Notes under the pieces: model-generated
The model's database searches: none
What the model was told of the DNA's origin: nothing
What the model saw: only the letters and a program-made list of their open reading frames with translations
Position numbers and translations under genes: made by a program
IMG/VR virus record: IMGVR_UViG_3300011116_000895
Location: 1-52,792 of that record
Reading direction: 5' to 3' (one strand)
Origin: a virus
Length of the DNA: 52,792 bases
In this document: positions 34,979 to 47,262 of the stretch, one piece after another
How positions within the stretch are numbered: position 1 is the first letter of the stretch
Layout: every line of letters starts with the position of its first letter

Positions 34979-37375
34979 TTAACTGGTTGGAGTGATCCAA
35001 CTGCTATCGTGTGGATATCTTATAGAAAAGTGATGATCTGCCACATCACCTGCCGCAGGATATTCTGATTTAAAATTATGTTTAGCTAATTGCAAACCTC
35101 GAAGACCTGTACCCATTGCGTCGGTTTTTGTTTGGCTACTAAGTTGCTTCACTCCAACCAATTCGTTGGTTTTTTTGTTGTGAATCTGAATTTGAAAATC
35201 ATAATCCTCATTCAGACTCAATTTTTGGTCTAGTCGTGACTGTAAATACTTAGTCATCCTGTCAATTACTCCACGATTTCGTAATTCTTTGAATAATAAG
35301 TTTTCCATAGAGAATTCCCCGATTTTTTTTAAGCCTGAGGAGCGCATATTCTTGAATTTTTCTTTTAATTTGGAAAAACTCTCATCTTCCGCATTCGTAG
35401 AGATCAGGGTGTCAATTCTTTCCGTATATTGCTTCACTTTTGCGAGTAAAGCTGGTCCACGAAAGTCAACCGCTTCGTGTTTTGGCTGTGCAATCCACTT
35501 TTTATCCTTAACGCTGTAGACTCCTTGCTTTTTTGGGTAAGGAGTCTCCTTGTCTTGAGCGTAAAGCTCCACATCGTGACCGTAAATCGTGATGTCGTGC
35601 ACCAAAGCCCATAATTGTTTTTTATTTTGCAGATAATCGTCTAGCAAATCAGGGCAATCAGCCAGATCTTCACGATTTACGACGACATGTAGGTCAAGAT
35701 CCGAGAATTTTGTCCAGTTGTAATTGGCATTTCCGCCAACCAGGATGATGTCTGTGATGGCGAAGTCTGGAATCTTTGCAAATGTTGCCCATTTCTTGGC
35801 AATCTGCAGCAATTTAGCCTGAACTTCTGGTTTTAACTCGTCTCCGTCCCAAATTTTAGGGTTCAGAGTGTCGTGATACTCCAGAGTAAGGTCCTCTTCG
35901 GTTAAATATTTAAGAAAAGGCTTAATTTTTCCAGCGGAATACGATTCTGACAAACTTTTTGAATGTAAATCGTTAAGTTTTTGCTCTGCTGCTAGTGATA
36001 CTGCACGATTTGGATGCCTTGATGCAAAATCAAGTGCATCATATTGAGCATAACGATGATTTATAGCAGCAGCAGCCACTGCTGGGTTAGGATTACTTGC
36101 CGCAACCCTGATTGTTGAAGAATTTGCATGTTTGTGGTTTATTGCTCCCATAGCAACTTCATAATCTGGATGATTTGCTGCGTAACAAGTTGTTGTAAAA
36201 TCTGCGTCTTTATGAGCCAAAGCCGCCATAACAACTGCTGGATCTTTGTGTTTTGCTGCACCATGAGTTGTATATTCGTTTGAATATTTATGAGCCAAAG
36301 CTGCTAGAGCAACTGCTGGATCAGAATGTTGTGCTGCAGCTTGAGTTGTCATTTTATTTGCGTCTTTATGAGCCAAAGCTGCTAGAGCAACTGCTGGATC
36401 TCTGTGACTTGCTGCATATTCAGTTGTATATTTATTTGCGTCTTTATGAGCCAAAGCTGCTAGAGCAACTGCTGGATTAGAATGACGTGCTGCAGATTGA
36501 GTTGTTCCGTTATCTGCCGCTTTATGAGCCAAACCTGCCAGAGCAACTGCTGGATCTGGATGTTGTGCTGCGTAGTAAGTTGTTCTAAAATCTGCGTCTT
36601 TATGAGCCAAAGCCGCCATAACAACTGCTGGATCTTTGTGACTTGCTGCACCATGAGTTGTATATTCGTTTGAATATTTATGAGCCAAAGCTGCTAGAGC
36701 AACTGCTGGATCTTTATGTTCTGATGCACCATGAGTAGTTCTTTTGTCTGCGTCTTTATGAGCCAAAGCTGCTAGAGCAACTGCTGGATCAGAATGTTGT
36801 GCTGCAGTATGAGTTGGATTAAAATCTTGTGTTTTTGATGTGTTATTTAATGTTGATATTGCATCATCTCCAGAACCTTTAAATAATATACCCTTTATCC
36901 GACTTGTTTTTTTATCGTCATTAAGACGGGGTTCTGTGTTTACGAATTGAACTTCTGGATATTGTCTGGCAATAAGTTGATAAAGCATATGCCTTTTTGG
37001 ATCAGGTGTAGAATAACGCATTACTTTTGGTTTCACTTTAGTAATGAAGTCGTGTAGGTGGTCACGAGCAATTCTTATTATGTGGCTATTATCAACTGGT
37101 GTTGTGGATCCTGTATTATCATAATTTCTATTGACACCTACGTCTATATCATAAATACCAGAATCTGTGTCATCTTCGGATCCTATGTGAGTTACGATTT
37201 TATGTTCAGGATTGGTGTATTTAAATCTAGTAACACCGAATTCAGAAGTAATTTTTTCCAGTTCAGGATGGTCACCTAGATGTGTTGGGGGAAGCTCATC
37301 CAAGATGGATTCTAATAGAACAGCATAGTCTAGGGTATCATTATCTTCTACCAGATATTCAATAAAAGGCTTCAT
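34979..37375 (-). CDS. Tagged protein: helical repeats fused to nucleotidyltransferase
   Basis: 798 residues. 1-10: leader MKPFIEYLVE. About 11-180: unknown domain. About 182-455: ten or so 26-residue helical repeats (consensus DPAVALAALAHKDA then TT-x-x-AA-x-H). About 484-493: a second leader-like sequence, IKPFLKYLTE. About 495-650: nucleotidyltransferase domain with LNPKIWDGDELKPEV and the G-G...S-D-L-D-L active-site motif (IILVGGNANYNW; Asp pair near 558-560). The C-terminus is unknown. The second half alone resembles complete proteins of T4-like phages, so this is a fusion whose internal tag may be cut by the prohead protease. Confidence 0.75.
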   Translation of the reverse strand: MKPFIEYLVEDNDTLDYAVLLESILDELPPTHLGDHPELEKITSEFGVTRFKYTNPEHKIVTHIGSEDDTDSGIYDIDVGVNRNYDNTGSTTPVDNSHIIRIARDHLHDFITKVKPKVMRYSTPDPKRHMLYQLIARQYPEVQFVNTEPRLNDDKKTSRIKGILFKGSGDDAISTLNNTSKTQDFNPTHTAAQHSDPAVALAALAHKDADKRTTHGASEHKDPAVALAALAHKYSNEYTTHGAASHKDPAVVMAALAHKDADFRTTYYAAQHPDPAVALAGLAHKAADNGTTQSAARHSNPAVALAALAHKDANKYTTEYAASHRDPAVALAALAHKDANKMTTQAAAQHSDPAVALAALAHKYSNEYTTHGAAKHKDPAVVMAALAHKDADFTTTCYAANHPDYEVAMGAINHKHANSSTIRVAASNPNPAVAAAAINHRYAQYDALDFASRHPNRAVSLAAEQKLNDLHSKSLSESYSAGKIKPFLKYLTEEDLTLEYHDTLNPKIWDGDELKPEVQAKLLQIAKKWATFAKIPDFAITDIILVGGNANYNWTKFSDLDLHVVVNREDLADCPDLLDDYLQNKKQLWALVHDITIYGHDVELYAQDKETPYPKKQGVYSVKDKKWIAQPKHEAVDFRGPALLAKVKQYTERIDTLISTNAEDESFSKLKEKFKNMRSSGLKKIGEFSMENLLFKELRNRGVIDRMTKYLQSRLDQKLSLNEDYDFQIQIHNKKTNELVGVKQLSSQTKTDAMGTGLRGLQLAKHNFKSEYPAAGDVADHHFSIRYPHDSSWITPTS
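36010..36830 (-). repeat. 78-bp coding tandem repeats (helical repeat domain)
   Basis: The element TGAGCCAAA recurs at exactly 78-base intervals (36213, 36291, 36369, 36447, 36525, 36603, 36681, 36759), encoding 26-residue repeats. Further degenerate copies extend left to about 36010. Two blocks containing KYSNEYTTHGAA are near-identical, showing recent segmental duplication. Confidence 0.92.
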
Positions 37376-38813: not shown

Positions 38814-38881
38814 AAAAAAAAAAAAAATTAGAGAGGGGGGATCCTCAGGAATCGAATAGGGGGGTATGGGGGTGGGGGGGG
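38813..38881 (+). other. Poly(A) tract and four G-runs at the module boundary
   Basis: Fifteen A residues (38813-38827) are followed by G6 (38835-38840), G6 (38859-38864), G5 (38868-38872) and G8 (38874-38881). Four runs of at least five G can form a G-quadruplex on the plus strand. The gene-free gap 38802-39077 also has two TGCCGTCCT copies and an 8-bp inverted repeat (GGGAGTCC 38953-38960 / GGACTCCC 38986-38993) just before the first early promoter. Confidence 0.75.
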
Positions 38882-38997
38882 TCTGCGTGGTTTGCCGTCC
38901 TCTGCCGTCCTTGGAGTCTTGCAGGTATGTGTGCTAGCCCCAGGAGGCTCGTGGGAGTCCCATAACGCTGTGTACTGTTCGGACAGGACTCCCCCAT

Positions 38998-39025
38998 TTG
39001 ACAGCGTGGAAATCGAGTGTATACT
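38998..39025 (+). promoter_or_regulatory. Early promoter of cassette 1
   Basis: TTGACA, 16-bp spacer, TATACT. The leader has a stem ATGGC/GCCAT (39032-39047), a CCTCTTT box and GAAAGGA before the ATG. Confidence 0.85.
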
Positions 39026-39077
39026 TCACGCATGGCAACTTCGCCATATCACTTCCCCTCTTTGAAAGGATCTACTC

Positions 39078-39413
39078 ATGCGTATCGTCGATTGCTCGTC
39101 AACAAATCCCCCCGTCGTACTGATTGATCTGATTGTAACTCGCCACACAGGATTGGTCGAATTCTTGATTGAGCGTGGCGCATTTGATGCCACCACGCCT
39201 GTGGTTGCCCATGCCACCGCCGCCCTTGTAACGGGCAAGAATGTGTTGGGCGTTCTTCCCCTCCACCTTGCGGCACTCGCCGCAAGCGTAACGGAAGCCA
39301 CTTTACAACTCACCCCCGATCAACGTGGGAAAGAATTGGGTATCGAAGAAGTTAGGGAAGCCTTCCAAGGTTTCAATACCTACGTGGTCATGAAGGCGGG
39401 GGGTGAAGTATGA
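39078..39413 (+). CDS. Csx16-like protein (putative viral ring nuclease / anti-type III CRISPR)
   Basis: 111 residues, about the Csx16 length. Conserved elements in order: LIVTRHTGLVEFL (TRH-x-G at 21-25), GKNVLGVLPLHLAALA (G-x-LP-x-HLAA at 58-66) and QRGKELGIEEV (RG-x-EL at 83-87). These match the Csx16/VVA1548 family (TRH-x-G-x-x-E...G-x-LP-x-(H/N)LA...RG-x-ELS). Csx16 is linked to type III CRISPR systems and cyclic-oligoadenylate turnover. On a phage, with its own strong early promoter and no CRISPR genes nearby, degradation of that second messenger is the likely role; this is inference. Confidence 0.8.
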   Translation: MRIVDCSSTNPPVVLIDLIVTRHTGLVEFLIERGAFDATTPVVAHATAALVTGKNVLGVLPLHLAALAASVTEATLQLTPDQRGKELGIEEVREAFQGFNTYVVMKAGGEV

Positions 39414-39592
39414 GTCCTAGAGGACGAAGAAGCGGAAGGGGGGGCGAACAGCCCCCCCAACCAAAGGCGGAAGTGGAAGTTCCTCTGACGAGGCGAGAGC
39501 GAAGGCTCGCCAAGTATGGAGAGCCCAAGCCCCAAGTGGCTGCTCCAATCCCTCTGGAAGAGAGGGAGTACTTCGGATGGAATCGAGACTGA
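39410..39592 (+). CDS. 60-residue basic, Pro-rich protein
   Basis: Overlaps the Csx16-like stop as ATGA, so it is coupled to it. The N-terminus is MSPRGRRSGRGGEQPPQPKA; the C-terminal half is VPLTRRERRLAKYGEPKPQV followed by an acidic end (LEEREYFGWNRD). It looks disordered and nucleic-acid-binding; no family. Being second in the cassette, it may act with the Csx16-like protein. Confidence 0.6.
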   Translation: MSPRGRRSGRGGEQPPQPKAEVEVPLTRRERRLAKYGEPKPQVAAPIPLEEREYFGWNRD

Positions 39593-39603
39593 TCGCCACA
39601 TCC

Positions 39604-39619
39604 CTCCCCTTCGGGGGAG
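39604..39619 (+). terminator. Hairpin terminator of cassette 1
   Basis: CTCCCC/GGGGAG around a stable TTCG tetraloop, extended by an outer ATCC/GGAT pairing. A T-run occurs only about 30 bases later. Confidence 0.7.
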
Positions 39620-39689
39620 CGGATGTTGATAGTCGCAGGGTCCTATAATATTTTTTTTTTCTTTAAAGAACGAAAATTAAGAATTTCAT

Positions 39690-39718
39690 TTGACATTTAA
39701 TACACAATTTGGTATAAT
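39690..39718 (+). promoter_or_regulatory. Early promoter of cassette 2 (full consensus)
   Basis: TTGACA, 17-bp spacer, TATAAT. Unlike its neighbours it has no leader stem-loop but does have TTTACTCTTTAAAA, the most boxA-like version of the leader box. Confidence 0.9.
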
Positions 39719-39769
39719 ACACGCTCACTCGTTTACTCTTTAAAAACCCCTCTTTGAAAGGCACTACAA

Positions 39770-40108
39770 ATGGACATGAAATCAAGAAACTTTACTGATG
39801 ATAATGGCGCAACACTCAACCGATGGATTGCCAAATCCAACCCAACAAATGAACAAATTGCATTTGTTGATTCAGTCTACGATATGTGTGAACGAAACTA
39901 TGAGCGTGGTGGCGACAGCATCGTGGAATGTTGGGGAGCTGATGAAATCGCCAAAGAATTCAAGACTCTCAAGCAGGTTAAAGAATATTGCGGCGCAATG
40001 GTTGAGCGAGCTTTGGATGCACGATGGGGTGAGGATTCTGATCCTCAGCTGGAAGCGTATGAGGCGCACAAAGATTGGGGAAAGGGCGAAGGTGAAATTG
40101 GTCGGTGA
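39770..40108 (+). CDS. Early protein, unknown (cassette 2)
   Basis: 112 residues; GAAAGG lies ten bases before the ATG. Helical and acidic (IAFVDSVYDMCERNYERGGD; ADEIAKEFKTLKQVKEYCGA) with a C-terminal EDSDPQLEAYEAHKDWGKGE. Two cysteines. I recognise no family. Followed by a hairpin CTCCCC/GGGGAG (40123-40140) with outer CATCC/GGATG arms. Confidence 0.6.
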   Translation: MDMKSRNFTDDNGATLNRWIAKSNPTNEQIAFVDSVYDMCERNYERGGDSIVECWGADEIAKEFKTLKQVKEYCGAMVERALDARWGEDSDPQLEAYEAHKDWGKGEGEIGR

Positions 40109-40117
40109 GCTCGCCAG

Positions 40118-40146
40118 CATCCCTCCCCTCCCCAGGGGAGCGGATG
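40118..40146 (+). terminator. Hairpin terminator of cassette 2
   Basis: CATCC-CTCCCC ... GGGGAG-C-GGATG, a two-part stem closely related to the cassette 1 and 4 hairpins. No immediate T-run. Confidence 0.6.
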
Positions 40147-40246
40147 TTGATAGTCGCCAGAGGTTATCAGACTCTGGCATTGTTGATAGTCGCCAACGTC
40201 CTGATAATATTTTTTTTCTTTAAAGAACGAAAATTGAGAATTTGAT

Positions 40247-40274
40247 TTGACACGGTGGAAATTGACTCCATACT
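40247..40274 (+). promoter_or_regulatory. Early promoter of cassette 3
   Basis: TTGACA, 16-bp spacer, CATACT. Leader stem TCGGCA/TGCCGA with GGGT loop (40282-40297), then AACTCTTTCAGAAAGG. Confidence 0.82.
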
Positions 40275-40327
40275 GCTCTTGTCGGCAGGGTTGCCGATGA
40301 CACTCAACTCTTTCAGAAAGGTCAGAA

Positions 40328-40570
40328 ATGGCAAGTCAACTAGAAATGTTAATGGCGGAGAATGCCGCACTCAAAGCGGCGGCGGCGGAGGCGGCGGCAT
40401 CCAAGGTGAAGGCAATCGGCTTCAAGGTGTCCGAGAAGGGTGCTTTGAGCGTATATGGCTTGGGTCGGTTTCCCGTGACCCTGTACAAGGGTCAATGGAT
40501 ACGCTTGATTGAGGCGTTGCCATCACTTCAAGTTTTCATGGCAAATAACACATTCAAGGAAAAGGACTAA
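40328..40570 (+). CDS. Coiled coil plus conserved 'GLGRFPVTLY' domain (cassette 3)
   Basis: 80 residues. An Ala-rich coiled coil (LEMLMAENAALKAAAAEAAA) is followed by KVKAIGFKVSEKGALSVYGL, then GRFPVTLYKGQWIRLIEAL. The KG-x-(L/V)-SVYGLGRFPVTLY-x-x-QW segment is one I have seen in small uncharacterised proteins of phages and bacteria. It is probably a small beta domain oligomerised by the helix. Two hairpins follow. Confidence 0.65.
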   Translation: MASQLEMLMAENAALKAAAAEAAASKVKAIGFKVSEKGALSVYGLGRFPVTLYKGQWIRLIEALPSLQVFMANNTFKEKD

Positions 40571-40579
40571 AGAGGGTGC

Positions 40580-40666
40580 GGCGGAGCAAGCCATGGGGCT
40601 GCTCCGCCTTACTTCTACCAAGCAAAAGAGAGACCCCCCCCTCCGAGGAGTTCCGAGGGGGCGGTC
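40580..40666 (+). terminator. Tandem terminators of cassette 3
   Basis: Hairpin 1: GGCGGAGCA (40580-40588)/TGCTCCGCC (40600-40608), with inner AGCC/GGCT pairing. Hairpin 2: GACC-CCCCTC/GAGGGG-GGTC arms (40632-40666) followed by ATTTTTTT, a canonical intrinsic terminator. Confidence 0.85.
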
Positions 40667-40784
40667 ATTTTTTTCGCATGTTGATAGTCGCCACCTGTTA
40701 TCGGACTTCGCCAAATGTTGATAGTCGCCAAGGTTATTGGACAAAATATTTTTTTCTTTAAAGAACGAAAATCGAGAATTTAAT

Positions 40785-40812
40785 TTGACACCGTGCAAAT
40801 TGACTCCATACT
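40785..40812 (+). promoter_or_regulatory. Early promoter of cassette 4
   Basis: TTGACA, 16-bp spacer, CATACT; leader stem TGGCA/TGCCG with GGGT loop (40821-40834), CCTCTTT box. Confidence 0.82.
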
Positions 40813-40869
40813 GCTCTTGTTGGCAGGGTTGCCGATGCTCACTCTCCCCTCTTTGAAAGGATACTAGCC

Positions 40870-41184
40870 ATGAAGATTACATCTCTCGGAAACAACCAAA
40901 TGACTCTAACCCTCACAAATGCGACTGTGTTCGTATCGTACTCGACTCCCGTAGCGGCGTTTGTACGGGACTTTGGATTTGTTCGTGCCAAGGAAAGGTA
41001 CTCACGCACAACCACCAAACACATCAACGCTTGGCTCACTCAAGAAGCAGGAACCTGCCACAAAGAATTTGTAGTTGAGGTTCCACAGTTCGAAATCGCC
41101 GCCCTCCTGAAATCGACTGATCCTGAAACTTCGAAGTCGATGGATGTGATGCGACGGTACTTCCCAACCTGCATGGGAGGTTGA
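40870..41184 (+). CDS. DUF8033-like early protein (cassette 4)
   Basis: 104 residues. NATVFVSYSTPVAAFVRDFG, then RYSRTTTKHINAWL, gives an (F/V)SY-x-TPVA...(Y)S-x-TT-(T/S)-(K/R)HIN-x-(W/F)L signature that I associate with a small DUF8033-type phage/plasmid family of unknown function. GAAAGGA precedes the ATG. The C-terminus (KSMDVMRRYFPTCMGG) is helical. Confidence 0.6.
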   Translation: MKITSLGNNQMTLTLTNATVFVSYSTPVAAFVRDFGFVRAKERYSRTTTKHINAWLTQEAGTCHKEFVVEVPQFEIAALLKSTDPETSKSMDVMRRYFPTCMGG

Positions 41185-41193
41185 GAGTTCCCC

Positions 41194-41274
41194 CATCCCT
41201 CCCCTTCGGGGGAGTGGATGGGGATGATACCCAGACTGATCTCCAGCATCCCTCCCCTCCCCAGGGAGCGGATG
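41194..41274 (+). terminator. Two successive hairpins of cassette 4
   Basis: 41194-41220: CATCC-CTCCCC-TTCG-GGGGAG-T-GGATG. 41247-41274: CATCC-CTCCC...GGGAG-C-GGATG. The two are near-duplicates, showing that terminator modules are copied around the array. Confidence 0.7.
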
Positions 41275-41384
41275 TTGATAGTCGCCATGTGTTATCGGAC
41301 TCTGTGAATGTTGATAGTCGCCAGGGTCCGATAATTTTTTTTTTCTTTAAAGAAAAATAATTTGAAATAAATTTAAGATTTAAT

Positions 41385-41412
41385 TTGACACGGTAAAAAT
41401 TGGCTCCATACT
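41385..41412 (+). promoter_or_regulatory. Early promoter of cassette 5
   Basis: TTGACA, 16-bp spacer, CATACT; leader stem TCGGCA/TGCCGA (41420-41434), CCTCTTT box, GAAAGGA. Confidence 0.82.
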
Positions 41413-41463
41413 GACGATGTCGGCACGTTGCCGATTTCACTTCCCCTCTTTGAAAGGATTGAA

Positions 41464-41814
41464 ATGATCAACTACGTTTATGCGAACATGATCGACGGAA
41501 TGCCTGCTCCCTTTGTCGGTGGTCCTGCCACCGAATTGTGGTGGACGGATCGCTACGGTTGCACGGTTACAAGCGTTACTTTTGCCAAGAGTGGCAAGCG
41601 CAAGGGACAGATTACGCAATTCACGATGACACATGATCGGGTCGTTTGGGACGTTTCGGGTGGCGAAGGTAGCGAGAAGGTAAAAACCTACGAGACCGTG
41701 GAAGGCGCAAGTCCAATCACAGTAAAACTGCGAAGCAATGGTCGATGGAAGACAACGGGTGGACAATACGTTTCGGTTGGCTTCCGAGACACTTATCGAG
41801 ACCCTCACTACTAA
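41464..41814 (+). CDS. Early beta-rich protein, unknown (cassette 5)
   Basis: 116 residues from the ATG at 41464. An earlier in-frame ATG lies before the ribosome site and is rejected. It is beta-rich and basic (CTVTSVTFAKSGKRKGQITQ; TVKLRSNGRWKTTGGQYVSV), with an N-terminal PAPFVGGPATELWWTDRYGC loop. Reminiscent of small nucleic-acid-binding beta barrels, but I recognise no family. Confidence 0.6.
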   Translation: MINYVYANMIDGMPAPFVGGPATELWWTDRYGCTVTSVTFAKSGKRKGQITQFTMTHDRVVWDVSGGEGSEKVKTYETVEGASPITVKLRSNGRWKTTGGQYVSVGFRDTYRDPHY

Positions 41815-41826
41815 AGAGCAAAAAAG

Positions 41827-41861
41827 AAACCCCCCGCCGTAAGTTTGGCGGGTGGGTTTTT
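41827..41861 (+). terminator. Intrinsic terminator of cassette 5
   Basis: AAACCC-CCCGCC / GGCGGG-T-GGGTTT stem with an 8-base loop runs into TTTTT. Confidence 0.9.
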
Positions 41862-41974
41862 CTTTAAAGAATTTTTGAAAATTTTTCGCCTGTTGATAGT
41901 CGCCAGGGTTATCGGACTCTGTGAATGTTGATAGTCACAGTAGTTATTGGACAATAAATTATTTAAGATTTAAT

Positions 41975-42002
41975 TTGACACGATGGAAATCGACTGTACA
42001 AT
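41975..42002 (+). promoter_or_regulatory. Early promoter of cassette 6
   Basis: TTGACA, 16-bp spacer, TACAAT; leader stem ATGGC/GCCAT (42009-42024) nearly the same as cassette 1, then AACTCTTTAATAAAGG. Confidence 0.85.
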
Positions 42003-42055
42003 CGACGCATGGCAACTCTGCCATATCACTCAACTCTTTAATAAAGGATACTCAA

Positions 42056-42271
42056 ATGGCTTACTGCACGACAAACTACAAGACAAAGAAGCAATTCAAA
42101 GAAGCGATTGCGCAAGGCGTGAAAGTCGGAGTGTGGCAACCAAGTCCGATGGGAAGTAGCACGGTATACGGTGAAACGGTTTGTGTGGAAGGTCCACAGT
42201 ATCCTGCGCCACACAGTTGGTACGCCACGGTAAAGGTTGATGATCAAGGCGTGGTGGTAAGCGTGAAGTAA
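42056..42271 (+). CDS. Small early protein with EGP-x-YPAPH-x-WYA motif (cassette 6)
   Basis: 71 residues from the ATG at 42056; AAAGGA is nine bases upstream. KTKKQFKEAIAQGVKVGVWQ, then VCVEGPQYPAPHSWYATVKV and a D-x-(G)-x-VV-x-V-K end. The EGP-x-YP-x-PH-x-WYA-x-V signature occurs in small uncharacterised phage proteins I recall. Likely a compact beta fold. Function unknown. Confidence 0.65.
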   Translation: MAYCTTNYKTKKQFKEAIAQGVKVGVWQPSPMGSSTVYGETVCVEGPQYPAPHSWYATVKVDDQGVVVSVK

Positions 42272-42290
42272 AGACAACGCAACAAAGAGG

Positions 42291-42332
42291 GATCAGTAGG
42301 GCAAGCCACGGGGCTACCCTGCTGATCTTTTT
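42291..42332 (+). terminator. Intrinsic terminator of cassette 6
   Basis: GATCAG-x-AGGG / CCCT-x-CTGATC stem with a GCAAGCCACGGGGCT-containing loop, followed by TTTTT. Confidence 0.88.
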
Positions 42333-42439
42333 GCGCCTGTTGATAGTTGCCATGGTTATCGGACTTCACCAAATGTTGATAGTCGCCAAGGTCCTGATAA
42401 TAATTTTTTTCTTTAAAGAAAAATAATTTAAGATTTAAT

Positions 42440-42467
42440 TTGACACGGTGAAATTCGACCTTACAAT
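42440..42467 (+). promoter_or_regulatory. Early promoter of cassette 7
   Basis: TTGACA, 16-bp spacer, TACAAT; leader stem GGCAAC/GTTGCC (42476-42490), AACTCTTTATAGGA. Confidence 0.85.
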
Positions 42468-42524
42468 CGACGCATGGCAACGCCGTTGCCTAATCTTACT
42501 CTAAACTCTTTATAGGATACCATC

Positions 42525-43070
42525 ATGAAACTCAATACTAAACTCTTTGAATCCGCCACTTCCAAGTACGCTACCTTGGCGCAGTCCCTCAAGGGACAAG
42601 CCTTGGCGGATGCTTTGGCATGGTACTGCGAAGCGCAAGCCTTCGCTATTCACCTTACGACAATTACGCCTTGGACATTGGAAGTGGCGGCATCCGTTGT
42701 ATCCTCATTCAGTCCACGCAATAAGTGGAATAATAATAAGGCGCAAGCCTTGTTATTCGCAATGGGTGGCAAGCCTAAGGGATTGCGGAATAACTTGCGC
42801 ATGGCGCAAGCGAGTACTCGCCTTGGATTTGCGGCGTTGAAGGGATTAAAGACCAACGCCTTTGCCCGTGCAATTGCGGGGGATATGGCGGCGGTGGTGG
42901 TGGACACTTGGATGGTGAAAGCGGCGGGGCTAGACTCTAGCAAGAGTCTAAGCAAGGGCAAATACTTTGCCCTAGCGTCGGCAGTAACTGCGGTTGCGGT
43001 TGGCATGGGATGGAGCAACGCCGCAACGCAAGCGGTGATTTGGTGCGCCATCAGGGGGGGACACGCATGA
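42525..43070 (+). CDS. DUF7178-like early protein, helix-hairpin-type (cassette 7)
   Basis: 181 residues. ASVVSSFSPRNKWNNNKAQA, then RNNLRMAQASTRLGF and ARAIAGDMAAVVVDTWMVKA, then AVTAVAVGMGWSNAATQAVIW. The order 'SP-(R)-x-x-W-x-x-N-x-x-A...G...V-V-D-x-W' follows a phage family (DUF7178) that looks like a degenerate HhH-GPD/DNA-glycosylase scaffold, with the VDTW aspartate where the catalytic Asp would be. A DNA-base or nucleotide role is a guess. Rich in Ala and GC-biased. Confidence 0.62.
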   Translation: MKLNTKLFESATSKYATLAQSLKGQALADALAWYCEAQAFAIHLTTITPWTLEVAASVVSSFSPRNKWNNNKAQALLFAMGGKPKGLRNNLRMAQASTRLGFAALKGLKTNAFARAIAGDMAAVVVDTWMVKAAGLDSSKSLSKGKYFALASAVTAVAVGMGWSNAATQAVIWCAIRGGHA

Positions 43071-43105
43071 GCCGATAACCCCAACGCCGAAAAGGATTCG
43101 TCCCT

Positions 43106-43123
43106 GCCGCCCTTCGGGGCGGC
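43106..43123 (+). terminator. Hairpin terminator of cassette 7
   Basis: GCCGCCC-TTCG-GGGCGGC, a 7-bp GC stem with a UUCG loop; outer CGCCGAA/TTCGGTG can extend it. No T-run. Confidence 0.65.
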
Positions 43124-43199
43124 TAGGCTTCGGTGTTGATAGTCGCAGGGGTTATGGGACTCGTAAGTTATCGGACTCGAAAATAATTTAATTTTCCAT

Positions 43200-43227
43200 T
43201 TGACACGGTGCAAATTGGCTTTATGAT
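43200..43227 (+). promoter_or_regulatory. Early promoter of cassette 8
   Basis: TTGACA, 16-bp spacer, TATGAT; leader stem GTCAGCA/TGCTGAC (43234-43250), AACTCTTAATGAAAGG. Confidence 0.83.
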
Positions 43228-43284
43228 GCGGCAGTCAGCAAGGTGCTGACACTCACTAAACTCTTAATGAAAGGATACTAGATT

Positions 43285-43560
43285 ATGGAAAACTCAACAC
43301 TTAACTTGTCAACTGCGGGAGTAGCGTTTGCTCATGAGGTTGCCCAACACCCACGCCGTCTGCACAATGCCGAAGCCCTTGCGTTGGTCGGTGCAAGCGA
43401 TGATGAGGGTTGCCGCTTTGTCTTGGAGCAGGGTGCGACTGCCTGCGGCTATGCGAATCGCTTCTACCCAAAGAGCGACAAGTGGGTAACTAATCGCCTG
43501 CGTAAGGCTTCGTATGCTCGCCTCGCCCAATGGGCGCAAGGTAAGGCTACGAAGGTGTAA
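43285..43560 (+). CDS. Early protein, unknown (cassette 8)
   Basis: 91 residues; GAAAGGA is ten bases before the ATG. Helical with AGVAFAHEVAQHPRRLHNAE and a second half, YANRFYPKSDKWVTNRLRKA, that is basic. Two cysteines (EGCRFVLEQGATACGY). No recognised family. Confidence 0.6.
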   Translation: MENSTLNLSTAGVAFAHEVAQHPRRLHNAEALALVGASDDEGCRFVLEQGATACGYANRFYPKSDKWVTNRLRKASYARLAQWAQGKATKV

Positions 43561-43575
43561 GTACAAAGAGGGTGC

Positions 43576-43660
43576 GGCGGGGCAAGCCACGGGGCTACCC
43601 CGCCCTACTTCTTCAAACAACAAAGAGGTTCGCCTCGCCCTCCCTTCGGGGAGGGTATTT
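43576..43660 (+). terminator. Tandem terminators of cassette 8
   Basis: 43576-43604: GGCGGGG/CCCCGCC with a GCAAGCCACGGGGCT core. 43638-43655: CCCTCCC-TTCG-GGGAGGG followed by TATTTTTC. Confidence 0.88.
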
Positions 43661-43733
43661 TTCGTCGTGTTGATAGTCGCAGGGGTTATCGGACTCTAGG
43701 AGTTATTGGTCAAATAATTATTTAAGATTTAAT

Positions 43734-43761
43734 TTGACACGGTGAAAATCGGCTGTAGAAT
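43734..43761 (+). promoter_or_regulatory. Early promoter of cassette 9
   Basis: TTGACA, 16-bp spacer, TAGAAT; leader stem CGGCA/TGCCG with GGGT loop (43770-43783), ACCTCTTTAGGAG. Confidence 0.82.
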
Positions 43762-43815
43762 CTACACAGCGGCAGGGTTGCCGTGGATACTGAACCTCTT
43801 TAGGAGCAACTAACA

Positions 43816-44166
43816 ATGGGTACTCGAATCACAAAAATGCAAGTGAAGCAGTTCTGCGACACACTCAACCTGCACACAGGCGAAGCATACGGCATATCGT
43901 TTGGGTCGTTTGGTAAGGTGTCGTTAGTGGACTATGTCGGGTCTGCGGAAGTGGATGTGCTGACGCATGGTCATGTCAGCAAGCGTGAACTGCTCAATCG
44001 CATGGGGGCATACATGGCAGGGTGGCGTAATTGCCGTACCAAAGAGGTGGTGAACAAGTGTTCACCTCCCACATTTGAATCCACATTCGATATGCCGTAT
44101 TTCCGTGGTGGTGTTCGCTACCAATGCAAGAATACCGCCTTTGTCAACGAAGGGGGTGCGGCGTGA
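43816..44166 (+). CDS. Early protein, unknown (cassette 9, first gene)
   Basis: 116 residues; AGGAG lies about eleven bases before the ATG. The N-terminal half is mixed (TKMQVKQFCDTLNLHTGEAY; GKVSLVDYVGSAEVDVLTHG). The middle is helical (RELLNRMGAYMAGWRN). The end is Cys/aromatic (YFRGGVRYQCKNTAFVNEGG). Four cysteines. No family recognised. Confidence 0.6.
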   Translation: MGTRITKMQVKQFCDTLNLHTGEAYGISFGSFGKVSLVDYVGSAEVDVLTHGHVSKRELLNRMGAYMAGWRNCRTKEVVNKCSPPTFESTFDMPYFRGGVRYQCKNTAFVNEGGAA

Positions 44167-44432
44167 ATCTGTTAGTCAGGTTGGGGTGGCTTGAGAATAC
44201 ACTCAAGGATTGTCTGACTCGCTTGGATGACCTTGCGAATGTTCCCTATGACGCTATGGCTGAGGAGGGAAGTTTCGGAGCATCGGTTCGGCGTGAGTTG
44301 GGTGAACAGGTGGAGTACTTGGAGCGTCAGTTGCGTGATGTTCGCATTCAGATCGAGGACAGCAAGGGTACGCCTGAGGAGGCGGCTGAGCGTAGGCGGC
44401 AACGCATCAGCGGCAGACTGTTCGCCAAATAA
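44163..44432 (+). CDS. Coiled-coil early protein (cassette 9, second gene, GTG start)
   Basis: 89 residues from a GTG that overlaps the previous stop as GTGA. An upstream ATG in frame lies inside the first gene. Almost all helical: LGWLENTLKDCLTRLDDL and LGEQVEYLERQLRDVRIQIE, then a basic end (AAERRRQRISGRLFAK). The only two-gene cassette besides the Csx16 one. Confidence 0.65.
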   Translation: MNLLVRLGWLENTLKDCLTRLDDLANVPYDAMAEEGSFGASVRRELGEQVEYLERQLRDVRIQIEDSKGTPEEAAERRRQRISGRLFAK

Positions 44433-44444
44433 TCTAAAGAGGGC

Positions 44445-44482
44445 AACCGCTCCTGCTCCCCTTGTTGGGTGAGCGGGACGGT
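44445..44482 (+). terminator. Hairpin terminator of cassette 9
   Basis: AACCG...CTGCTC pairs imperfectly with GAGCGG...CGGTT around CCCTTGTTGGGT. No T-run immediately after; moderate support. Confidence 0.5.
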
Positions 44483-44551
44483 TGTTGATAGTCGCAGTGG
44501 TTATCGGACTCTGCGGATTTCTTTAAAGAAAAAAATAATTTAATATTTTAC

Positions 44552-44579
44552 TTGACACGGTGAAAATCGACCCCATAAT
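44552..44579 (+). promoter_or_regulatory. Early promoter of cassette 10a
   Basis: TTGACA, 16-bp spacer, CATAAT; leader stem GTGTCGGCA/TGCTGACAC (44584-44604, one G-U pair), AACTCTTTCAGAAAGG. Confidence 0.85.
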
Positions 44580-44632
44580 GACGGTGTCGGCAAGGTGCTG
44601 ACACTCACTCAACTCTTTCAGAAAGGCTACTC

Positions 44633-45115
44633 ATGTTCTCACTCACAGACATCAATACTATGGCAAACAAGAAGTCAATCGCTTCACGAATGTACAACCA
44701 TGTGGTGAATATGCTTGAAGCCCCTGCCAACGCAGGGTTGGACGGATTCATTGGCGATGAGGTTGGCGAAGTGTTACTCTTGAAGGACAACGCTAATCAG
44801 GATGGGTTTAAGTTCGCCTGTGATCCTGACAACGAGTTGTTCGGCAAGACATTCGAAGGCTCTCCTGAGAACATCTCGATGGAGATTTTCCCTGAGTTCT
44901 ATTCGTCGCATATTGGTATGAAGTTGGTTGTGTTCAGCCATAGCGGTGACGAAATGACAGGGTGGGCGGCGAAGGAGTTCATGGACACGCTGAATGTGAA
45001 GCAGTTGAACAAGATTGCTGAGGCGATGGCGTGGCTGATCGAAGCCTATGGCAAGGGCATTGTGAACGGTGACGGAACGATCAGCGGCTACATCACGGAG
45101 TACATGAAGAAGTAA
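44633..45115 (+). CDS. Early protein, unknown (160 residues)
   Basis: 160 residues; GAAAGG is about nine bases before the ATG, and a second in-frame ATG (residue 10) is possible. Acidic. It has SRMYNHVVNMLEAPANAGLD, an EVGEVLLLKDNANQDGFKFA beta segment and a helical end (LNKIAEAMAWLIEAYGKGIV). No family recognised. Confidence 0.6.
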   Translation: MFSLTDINTMANKKSIASRMYNHVVNMLEAPANAGLDGFIGDEVGEVLLLKDNANQDGFKFACDPDNELFGKTFEGSPENISMEIFPEFYSSHIGMKLVVFSHSGDEMTGWAAKEFMDTLNVKQLNKIAEAMAWLIEAYGKGIVNGDGTISGYITEYMKK

Positions 45116-45137
45116 ACACCAATCACGGGTGTGACAG

Positions 45138-45171
45138 CCCCCTCTGCCCCCAACAGGGCAGGGGGGTTTTT
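45138..45171 (+). terminator. Intrinsic terminator
   Basis: CCCCTCTGCCC/GGGCAGGGGG stem with a CCAACA loop, then TTTTTG. Confidence 0.9.
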
Positions 45172-45307
45172 GCCGTCCCTGAGTTATCGGACTCAGGGGG
45201 CGGCGTGTTGATAGTCGCAGGGGTTATCGGACTCGGCTATGTTATCGGACTCTATCTTGCGCCGATATAAAGGATATAAAAATATTTTAAAAAATTGCAA
45301 ATTCAAT

Positions 45308-45335
45308 TTGACACCGTGCAAATTGAGCGTACAAT
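45308..45335 (+). promoter_or_regulatory. Early promoter of the DUF932-like gene
   Basis: TTGACA, 16-bp spacer, TACAAT; the longest leader stem of the array, about 10 bp (45341-45350/45356-45365), then AACTCTTTCAGGAGA. Confidence 0.86.
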
Positions 45336-45396
45336 CGGCGTGTCGGCAGGAAGTTCCTGCTGACAATTCTCACTAACTCTTTCAGGAGATACTCGA

Positions 45397-46374
45397 ATGG
45401 CTTCTACGATTCAACTTTACAATGCTACTGATGCTGACAAGGCTAACTTGACGGCTGACCCGATTTCCATGATGCGGAAGGCAGGTTTGGATTGGAAGGT
45501 TTCCACCTTGCCTATCGTGGCTTGCGGTGCTGACGGTGCGGCGTACTCAGGCGGTGACTACAGGGCGATTGTGCGTGAGGACACAGGCTTTGTGTTTGCT
45601 GTTGCAAAGGAAGGCTACACTTCCATTCAGAACCATGAGTTGGCTGATCTCTGCTATGAGATCACTAACTTCAGCGGTACTAGTTGCACCCAAGTGGGTT
45701 CAATCAACAATGGCAAACGAGTCTTCTTCCAAGTTGACTTGGGTCAGGTGAACATTGGCGGCGATCCTCGTGATGTGGTTAATAATAACTTTTTTATTGG
45801 TACTAGCCATGATACGAGTTGGGCTACCACACTTGGCTTGAATGCTCAACGCATTGTCTGCATGAACACTTTCATGATGGCTTTGGCGGGTATGAAGGGC
45901 AAGGCTGACTCGGCATCCATTCGTCACGGATCAGGCTCGAAAGCACGGTTTGGCATGATCAAGGAATGGGTTGAAGCAGGAATGGGACAGGCTGAGTCTT
46001 TCACTAAGTTCTGCAACAGTTTGGCACAGCGTGAAGTGACTACGGCTAGTGCGGATGTGTTCTTTCAGGAGGTGTATAACTCCATGAACGGAACTCCAAA
46101 GGCATCAGGGCGTGGCAATACTCGCTACGAGCAGGTGTTGGATGCGTGGCGTACCAACCTTTGGGTTGACACAAAGCAGACAGGTATGCGGTCTGCGGGT
46201 AGCCTGTGGTCGGCTGTGAATGCGATCACCCAATGGGTGGATCATGAGCGTACTGTGAAGGGTGAGGACAGCAATGACTCCCTGCGTTTGGAGTCGAACC
46301 TGTTCGGGGTCGGCTCGACCATCAAGGAGAAAGCCTACGCTCAGGCTGAAGCGTGGATGGCGGTGAACGCCTGA
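45397..46374 (+). CDS. DUF932/TIGR03299-type phage-plasmid protein
   Basis: 325 residues; AGGAGA precedes the ATG. FAVAKEGYTSIQNHELADLC, then INNGKRVFFQVDLGQVNIGG, NNFFIGTSHDTSWATTLGLN and RIVCMNTFMMALAG, form the DUF932 core (V-x-Y-x-x-(V/I)QN-x-E...G-(R)-x-(V/F)...HDGS/T...R-(V/I)-VC-x-NT). These proteins are common on plasmids and phages, often near anti-restriction genes; biochemical function is not settled. The C-terminal third is helical. By far the largest gene of the array. Confidence 0.8.
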   Translation: MASTIQLYNATDADKANLTADPISMMRKAGLDWKVSTLPIVACGADGAAYSGGDYRAIVREDTGFVFAVAKEGYTSIQNHELADLCYEITNFSGTSCTQVGSINNGKRVFFQVDLGQVNIGGDPRDVVNNNFFIGTSHDTSWATTLGLNAQRIVCMNTFMMALAGMKGKADSASIRHGSGSKARFGMIKEWVEAGMGQAESFTKFCNSLAQREVTTASADVFFQEVYNSMNGTPKASGRGNTRYEQVLDAWRTNLWVDTKQTGMRSAGSLWSAVNAITQWVDHERTVKGEDSNDSLRLESNLFGVGSTIKEKAYAQAEAWMAVNA

Positions 46375-46400
46375 TCCCCTGACGATCTTTGAAAGGTCTG

Positions 46401-46436
46401 ACCCCTCTGCCCGTAAAACGGCAGGGGGGTTTTTTA
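46401..46436 (+). terminator. Intrinsic terminator after the DUF932-like gene
   Basis: ACCCCTCTGCC/GGCAGGGGGGT stem with an 8-base loop followed by TTTTTATTTA. Confidence 0.92.
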
Positions 46437-46550
46437 TTTATTATTATTTCGCCGCAAGTTATCGGACTTTGCGTCGCCAGTTGATAGTTGCAGGGGGTGT
46501 TATGGGACGGCTAAGTTATCGGACTGCACAATAATAATTTAATTTTCCAC

Positions 46551-46578
46551 TTGACACGGTGGAAATCGGCTGTATAAT
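46551..46578 (+). promoter_or_regulatory. Consensus promoter of the structured RNA
   Basis: TTGACA, 16-bp spacer, TATAAT: both hexamers perfect. Downstream there is no gene of credible length, which points to an RNA product. Confidence 0.9.
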
Positions 46579-46584
46579 AGGGGC

Positions 46585-46812
46585 ATGACACGAATACAAA
46601 AACCTTGTAGGTGAGTGCTTATAAACAACACCTATCTGCTCTGTCATGGGTGTCAGCAACACCTGTTCACCCTGCGTTGTTCGCCTAGTACCCTCAACAG
46701 GGGGAAAATCGTCAGGCGTGGTATAAATCCCAGTTCAGGCAAGGTGTCTGCCACACCCTGCCATGAGCCTCATCCGACTCTGACTTAGAGCCACCGAGAT
46801 GAGGCTTTTTTA
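46585..46812 (+). ncRNA. Putative structured small RNA (about 228 nt)
   Basis: It starts about six bases after a perfect TATAAT and ends in an intrinsic terminator (AGCCTCATC 46766-46774 / GATGAGGCT 46798-46806, then TTTTTTATTTT). Internal pairings: CATGACA (46584-46590)/TGTCATG (46642-46648) closes the 5' domain around TAGGTG/CACCTA (46608-46613/46629-46634); GGTGT/ACACC (46649-46653/46659-46663); GGCA-x-GGTGT/ACACC-x-TGCC (46738-46747/46753-46762). The only ORF from the start is nine codons. No known RNA class recognised. Confidence 0.72.
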
Positions 46813-46815
46813 TTT

Positions 46816-47262
46816 TATTATTACGCCAGTTATCGGACTCGCCTGTTGATAGTCGCACCCCCTGCTGCGGCACAGACTGATAACTCGGACATCTCAAAGG
46901 ACAGCCGTAGCACTTCTGCGTCTGCTTACAATATACCACCGATTTCGTCTATGTCAAGAGAAAAATCATAAAATTATTCAGATTCCTCAGATTTATGCAG
47001 AAGATGGCAGACCGTATCTAATGCGGCAGGGCGTTGTCCACGCTTGGGGGGTGCTGATGGCGGGAAAAAGGCTACGGACAGTTCCTAGGGCATCTGAGAG
47101 CCTCTGAGAGGGCTGCTAGGGGCTGCGAGTTGAGGCACAGACTCTTACCCCTATTTTCGGCTAAAAACCCACATATTATCCGACACCCCCACTTTGCCCC
47201 ATATCCCCCCACTTTATCTAGTCCCACACGATAAAAATAATTAAAAAATCTTCATTTACCAC
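46816..47262. other. Gene-free stretch between the cassette array and the right operon
   Basis: It holds the last TTATCGGAC (46830) and TTGATAGTCGC (46846) copies and a minus-strand promoter at 46930-46957. GC-rich inverted segments follow (around AGAGCCTCTGAGAGGGCT at 47097-47114) with a lone TTATCCGAC variant at 47176. No convincing coding sequence on either strand. Confidence 0.6.
46930..46957 (-). promoter_or_regulatory. Leftward sigma70-type promoter facing the structured RNA
   Basis: Minus strand TTGACA (46957-46952), 16-bp spacer ending ATCGGTGG, TATATT (46935-46930). The ATCGGTGGTATA end matches the uvdE promoter. It would give a short transcript running through the motif copies toward the shared hairpin at 46766-46806; only a 20-codon ORF is present. 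Confidence 0.75.

Follow-up and report, generated by a model that had tools for sequence, protein, structure and literature searches.

The DNA analysed here, referred to hereafter as the window, is the 52,792-nucleotide virus record IMGVR_UViG_3300011116_000895 (positions 1–52,792), in which we describe an array of small gene cassettes whose spacers repeat two short motifs, A and B. The window encodes T4-type baseplate proteins, including a gp6-type baseplate wedge protein, together with four tRNAs; by its gene content the phage is T4-like, and it appears to be lytic. At 39 kb the direction of the genes flips and the G+C content rises from 41% to 49%, forming the left border of an array of 12 units (c1–c12), 11 of them protein-coding and one RNA-like, laid out in the order promoter, 5′ hairpin, gene or genes, terminator and A/B cluster (Table 1). 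The first-pass annotation had seen about ten units here; its row of self-contained units stands, with the count now at 12.

Motif A (core TTGATAGTCGC, extended form TGTTGATAGTCGC) is present in 17 copies (14 exact and 3 with one mismatch), all on the + strand between 39626 and 46856, against a mean of 0.7 and a maximum of 4 in shuffled sequences. The exact form of motif B, TTATCGGAC, recurs 14 times where 0.3 copies are expected; counting the degenerate form GTTATNGGAC and close variants as well, B reaches 22 copies spanning 38957–46829, 3 of them reversed. The first-pass annotation had counted 17 and about 23 copies, the latter in both orientations, figures that are exact for A and essentially right for B. 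Our scans covered all 52.8 kb of the window, and the 39 copies all lie within 38957–46856, with none elsewhere and none (0/39) inside a gene, though 62% of the array is coding. B follows A at a distance of 14–18 bases (mostly 15–16). The doublet of motifs 35–37 bases apart, proposed earlier as a frequent pattern, is found (measured from A to A) in five spacers (c3–c7), the remaining spacers being arranged otherwise, as A-B-B, single A-B, A with a reversed B, or B-A-B.

Only one other IMG/VR contig was found with the element, IMGVR_UViG_3300027754_000045 (hereafter G001; 153,850 bases, with L011 denoting coordinates in its array locus). Searches across IMG/VR with strict and relaxed A-B patterns, a pattern for the RNA block of c12 and both promoter cores described below returned only G001 or nothing, and 50,697 phage records held no near match. 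The A-B pair gave one lone exact match in 84,980 genomes (our chance estimate being ~2); with matches at about the chance number, a reading of A/B as a host regulon was dropped. G001 carries a RecA-family gene; its first 22.9 kb correspond to 38.3–18.9 kb of the window and its last 11.6 kb to 38.8–52.8 kb, so that it is probably a genome that is nearly complete, circularly permuted and opened next to the array. It holds five copies of A (≤1 mismatch), all in its array and 5/5 on the coding strand, and eight exact copies of B, seven of them in the array. Because A and B are nearly confined to the array in G001, the motifs are array-specific at genome scale, in agreement with the first-pass annotation, and the one close relative checked carries the motif along with the genes it shares with the window.

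An A cluster lies 3′ of every unit (12/12 in the window, 5/5 in G001) but ahead of only 11/12 and 4/5 promoters, respectively, the first promoter being without one in both genomes; no + strand promoter comes after the last A/B cluster. Since A clusters follow every unit but do not precede every promoter, A is linked more closely with the ends of units than with promoters. Within A, nine consecutive positions (−1 to +7) are invariant in 22/22 copies of the two genomes, while the flanks vary.

The array promoters are uniform within each genome and different between the two. In the window the core TTGACACGGTGNAAAT occurs at 10 array places with ≤1 mismatch, a near-identity that bears out the promoters proposed earlier, and is absent from G001 at that stringency; the G001 array core, GTCACATTCAATCCCC, with a non-consensus −35 element (GTCACA), occurs at four array places (three exact, one with two mismatches) and nowhere in the window. 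The cores of c3, c10 and c11 are 44% identical between the genomes, whereas the genes around them are 79–86% identical and the c10/c11 leaders 74–84%; with cores uniform per genome, it follows that all units changed their promoter core together. This concerted change between two relatives raises the question of gene conversion versus a changed regulator: gene conversion among the spacers would do, and so would a changed factor that reads the core. No sigma r4 domain, as a sigma factor of the phage's own would have, was found in the window or G001.

A gene follows 11 of the 12 window promoters, and 10 of these 11 leaders (all but that of c2) contain a hairpin starting ~6–8 nt after the −10 element. 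The leader hairpins had been proposed in the first-pass annotation, and they covary: pairing is kept by compensatory changes (99% paired against 72% with re-paired arms, an upper estimate, biased upward because the arms were picked from folds). Its position puts the leader hairpin at or near the mRNA 5′ end, where, by analogy with known 5′ hairpins, it probably protects the mRNA. A similar leader, with promoter, 5′ hairpin and CTCTTTTAGAAAGG ribosome-binding stretch, precedes a distant c10 homologue (38–39% amino-acid identity) in an unrelated phage contig (L010 7690–7802) without A/B, so that leader and A/B are separate modules; a profile built from three sequences, used to look more widely for c10 relatives, recovered no further loci.

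Cassette content differs between the two genomes within matching surroundings. The left flank of the G001 array resembles that of the window (83% over 208 bp), the right flank also matches, and between them G001 has c3 (70% amino-acid identity), c10 (about 88–90%), c11 (84%) and the RNA unit, their order and the spacers being retained. Units c1, c2 and c4–c9 were not found at the DNA level across the whole 153.9-kb G001 record, and three extra genes stand in the place of c1, behind c3 and before the RNA block. Between the promoter and the RNA block of the relative, L011 3862–4183 holds a gene with a CxxC motif whose stop overlaps the ATG of the block.

By blastp the cassette proteins are unrelated to one another, as had been claimed, and 3′ ends are common to unrelated genes: c1 and c4 agree at 96% over 27 nt, c2 and c4 at 97% over 33 nt, the tails of c3 and c8 at 89% over 46 nt, and the c8 tail and that after the G001 extra gene X2 at 97% over 35 nt. 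The tail of c8 thus has two parts, one of c3 type and one matching the sequence behind X2 in G001, and it resembles the scar that deletion of X2 would leave. Spacers were compared by exact core searches, a gapped whole-spacer identity matrix being too permissive to inform; as possible traces of exchange between spacers there are the shared tails and this one scar-like tail, the compared genomes being too distant for junction mapping. Homologous recombination between the repeated spacers would be the simplest reading of shared tails and differing content. The earlier proposal that cassettes are gained, lost and shuffled fits a relative whose flanks and spacers match but whose cassettes differ; because only two genomes carry the element, shuffling is read from one comparison. 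Behind c4 (41185–41274) stand two near-identical tandem hairpins that match the c1 and c2 tails, possibly the scar of a lost cassette.

Unit c12 has its own promoter and an RNA-like block (46585–46815, 231 nt) that ends in a hairpin and T run. The block is 95% identical between the window and the relative, where flanking DNA is about 80% identical; its sole sizeable open frame (46615–46788) appears, by eye, to be broken by an indel in the relative. Fold z-scores are −2.3 and −1.9, and no Rfam family matched 46585–46815. Beyond it, a minus-strand promoter (46957–46930, TTGACA-16-TATATT) reads back into the terminal A/B cluster and may drive a second small RNA; by eye, the relative also has a minus-strand promoter there (TTGACT-16-TATACT). 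A stretch of ~370 bp (46885–47250) has no convincing gene, is 80% conserved in the relative, contains repeated CAGAT/CTGAGAG words and may serve as an origin or in regulation.

Table 1. Units and A/B clusters of the array, from left to right in window coordinates.
Feature	Position	Strand	Remarks
Reversed B, left array edge, upstream of c1 promoter	38957..38966	-	also in relative (L011 207)
Unit c1	38998..39592	+	promoter TTGACA 38998, 5′ hairpin, genes c1a 39078-39413 and c1b 39410-39592
c1 hairpin end	39599-39625	+	
A + reversed B cluster	39626..39649	+	
Unit c2	39690..40108	+	promoter, gene 39770-40108 (112 aa, without family)
A-B-A-(reversed, imperfect B) cluster	40147..40207	+	A to A 36 bases
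Unit c3	40247..40570	+	promoter, 5′ hairpin, gene 40328-40570; in relative, 70% aa
A-B-A-B cluster	40681..40742	+	A to A 37 bases
Unit c4	40785..41184	+	promoter, 5′ hairpin, gene 40870-41184 (phrog_5643)
A-B-A-reversed B cluster	41275..41335	+	A to A 36 bases
Unit c5	41385..41814	+	promoter, 5′ hairpin, gene 41464/41467-41814
A-B-A-B cluster	41893..41952	+	A to A 35 bases
Unit c6	41975..42271	+	promoter, 5′ hairpin, gene 42056-42271
A-B-A-(reversed, imperfect B) cluster	42340..42400	+	A to A 36 bases
Unit c7	42440..43070	+	promoter, 5′ hairpin, gene 42525-43070 (DUF7178, PF23802)
A-B-B cluster	43136..43176	+	
Unit c8	43200..43560	+	promoter, 5′ hairpin, gene 43285-43560
A-B-B cluster	43670..43711	+	
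Unit c9	43734..44432	+	promoter, 5′ hairpin, genes 43816-44166 and 44163-44432
Single A-B cluster	44485..44509	+	
Unit c10	44552..45115	+	promoter, 5′ hairpin, gene 44633-45115
B-A-B-B cluster	45183..45250	+	
Unit c11	45308..46374	+	promoter, 5′ hairpin, gene 45397-46374 (DUF932 / TIGR03299)
B-A-B-B cluster	46458..46524	+	
Unit c12	46551..46825	+	promoter and 231-nt conserved RNA-like block 46585-46815
Terminal B-A-(reversed B) cluster	46829..46888	+	reversed B degenerate in window, intact at L011 4466

Among the cargo, c1a (39078–39413) is a homologue of Csx16 (PF09652, 62 bits where the cut-off is 25, E 5.5e-17; PADLOC 1.3e-15; below the NCBIfam cut-off). Csx16 has cA4 ring-nuclease activity and was found in 2 of 28,114 phage genomes (PMC12409355), and we regard c1a as a candidate anti-type III CRISPR gene by homology. 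The c7 product belongs to DUF7178, a family known from actinobacteriophages, that of c11 to DUF932/TIGR03299 and that of c4 to phrog_5643; the remaining cassette genes have no clear family, and of 12 array proteins compared with Pfam, 9 gave none above cut-off. Outside the array, 34979–37375 (−) encodes a 798-residue protein in which central repeats of ~30 residues (AALAHKDADxxTTxxAAxHxDPAVA) are joined to a phrog_36119 domain.

We favour, with moderate confidence, a cassette platform resembling promoter-early stem-loops (PeSLs), reportedly the "mobile regulatory cassettes" of T4-type phages described by Arbiol in 2010 and Comeau in 2014, with recombination at the spacers and with A/B bound by a protein as operator or boundary. 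To our knowledge, neither an A/B module nor a concerted promoter change is part of PeSLs. The proposal builds on the unit anatomy, array-only A/B, differing content, shared 3′ ends and per-genome promoter core as they are read from the two sequences. Each unit would combine a host-type promoter, an mRNA with a 5′ hairpin, one or two accessory genes, a terminator and an A/B cluster; homologous recombination by the phage (RecA/UvsX-like) at the repeated spacers would gain, lose and swap cassettes and keep the spacers alike; and A with B would form, less certainly, a putative composite site for a DNA-binding protein. The protein bound there, at an operator or boundary, would limit read-through or time expression, placing an inserted gene under common control. 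The first-pass annotation knew of no described element of this kind, which holds for the sequence (among the literature matches listed for the motif words, none was about a phage motif), while the principle is, as far as papers citing the original work convey it, known as PeSLs.

Several points weigh against this proposal. In several terminators no classical T run immediately follows the hairpin, the "early" timing is suggested by promoter type, and the element occurs in two genomes only, where gain and loss are not distinguishable. HTH_17 and HTH_3 domains are absent from both records in a search limited to these folds. Between the last A and the −35 element the spacing is 64 in five cases but 47–100 overall, which misfits a simple activator dependent on helical phasing and speaks against strict phasing.

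Because A is tied to unit ends, is asymmetric and points with transcription like the stoperators discussed below, we favour a boundary or operator site. A more specific version, which we offer only tentatively, is a docking array for accessory genes in which an oriented A/B boundary site, recognised by a phage or host protein, closes each unit and all promoters are switched together between lineages. The A/B sites may serve one regulator, as first suggested. If A/B were simply operators of one activator or repressor switching all cassettes, with no role at unit ends, one would expect what is seen at 11 array promoters, where the last motif starts 32–67 bases upstream, and at promoters right of the array (47263, 49215, 51183 and 52769), which have no clusters; the non-consensus −35 of G001 could also need an activator. 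The c1 promoter, however, has an array-type core without an A cluster in both genomes, no + strand promoter stands behind the final cluster, and distances vary by more than one helical turn, which leaves the account conceivable but doubtful. It is unlikely, in our judgement, that A/B lack a protein partner altogether and are copied spacer parts, homogenised by gene conversion, with homology as their sole use: gene conversion would indeed give promoter cores uniform within each genome, and the spacers do recur beside unrelated genes, but only short words are fixed (the nine invariant positions of A amid varying flanks), A/B are unchanged between genomes whose cores have diverged to 44% identity, and B takes several arrangements in both orientations.

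Two further accounts of the motifs and one of the locus itself fare worse. Strong dyads enclose five solitary B copies (e.g., those at 45183 and L011 4422), as if B acted as an RNA hairpin (GU-UAUNGG-AC loop), for instance in termination or antitermination on read-through transcripts; yet over 35 B copies flank pairing (51 pairs against 43 ± 5.6 when re-paired) is not clearly above expectation, and the clusters mostly follow terminators and precede promoters, making this role improbable. B as a general RNA hairpin was rejected, its flank pairing over the 35 copies not being significant. Repeated oriented sites bordering cassettes whose genes differ between relatives also recall an integron-like array with A/B as sites for a site-specific recombinase, an idea to which we give hardly any credence given that the tyrosine-integrase domain PF00589 is absent from the window and G001, that each cassette has its own promoter and leader, and that tail matches extend past the motifs. 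Finally, the G+C jump at 39 kb and the runs of A and G at 38814–38890, near the shift (~38.8 kb), might suggest an assembly artefact joining two genomes; the identical junction with its runs recurs in the second record (L011 53–245), and both sides of the window are in G001, so the array is not a chimera and we treat that explanation as ruled out, its probability being practically nil.

Should the favoured PeSL-like platform be correct, a large lytic phage may swap small genes for host takeover and anti-defence without disturbing their neighbours, start and stop signals and the spacer travelling along. The A/B words and uniform cores offer a means of locating such genes in uncultured phages from where they lie rather than from their family. 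If the docking array were true, a captured gene, such as an enzyme that degrades a CRISPR signal, would come under common control at once.

Morons are self-contained promoter–gene–terminator units of foreign origin, usually single insertions; the units here are likewise self-contained but stand in a row with a common spacer. Integron cassettes lack a promoter of their own, whereas each array unit has one. A closer parallel for motif A is provided by the stoperators of Cluster A mycobacteriophages (L5, TipsytheTRex), which are short, asymmetric, intergenic, oriented with transcription and present in many copies (PMC9283540). Stoperators are 13 bases long, A being TGTTGATAGTCGC, and the sequence of A is, as far as we know, unrelated to theirs; A is array-confined where they are genome-wide, and B accompanies nearly all of its copies. 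Neither an HTH_3 nor an HTH_17 repressor was found in the window or G001 (the stoperator domain was not searched for), and the phage appears lytic. Cluster O mycobacteriophages carry more than 30 copies of unexplained 17-bp repeats, some linked to gene insertion or deletion (PMC4351075), and so share with A/B a multitude of unexplained copies in a phage group and a partial link to gene gain and loss. Those repeats are symmetric, genome-wide, one third within genes and mostly away from promoters (PMC4351075), whereas A/B never lie in genes and stand nearly always between terminator and promoter.

In the haloarchaeal virus HGTV-1, a promoter-like motif with an inverted repeat precedes most genes of one genome part (PMC3950731), a repeated arrangement itself likened to PeSLs; its promoter is of the archaeal TATA type, and it is not known to have an A/B pair. 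The PeSL cassette principle in T4-type phages is taken here as cited in PMC4503421, the features compared coming in part from that paper and PMC3950731, both citing sources. PeSLs reportedly occur in T4-like phages as intergenic units of an upstream terminator and a downstream early promoter, are dense in a gene-shuffling region, and leave unrelated genes between similar spacers. The array agrees in its T4-type backbone (the gp6-type wedge protein; the RecA-family gene in the relative), in its intergenic terminator hairpins with promoters (some hairpins without an adjacent T run) and in genes that differ between relatives while units persist (one relative compared). By comparison, its spacer adds A/B outside promoter and terminator together with a covarying 5′ hairpin, and its promoter cores are wholly different between two relatives while A/B persist.

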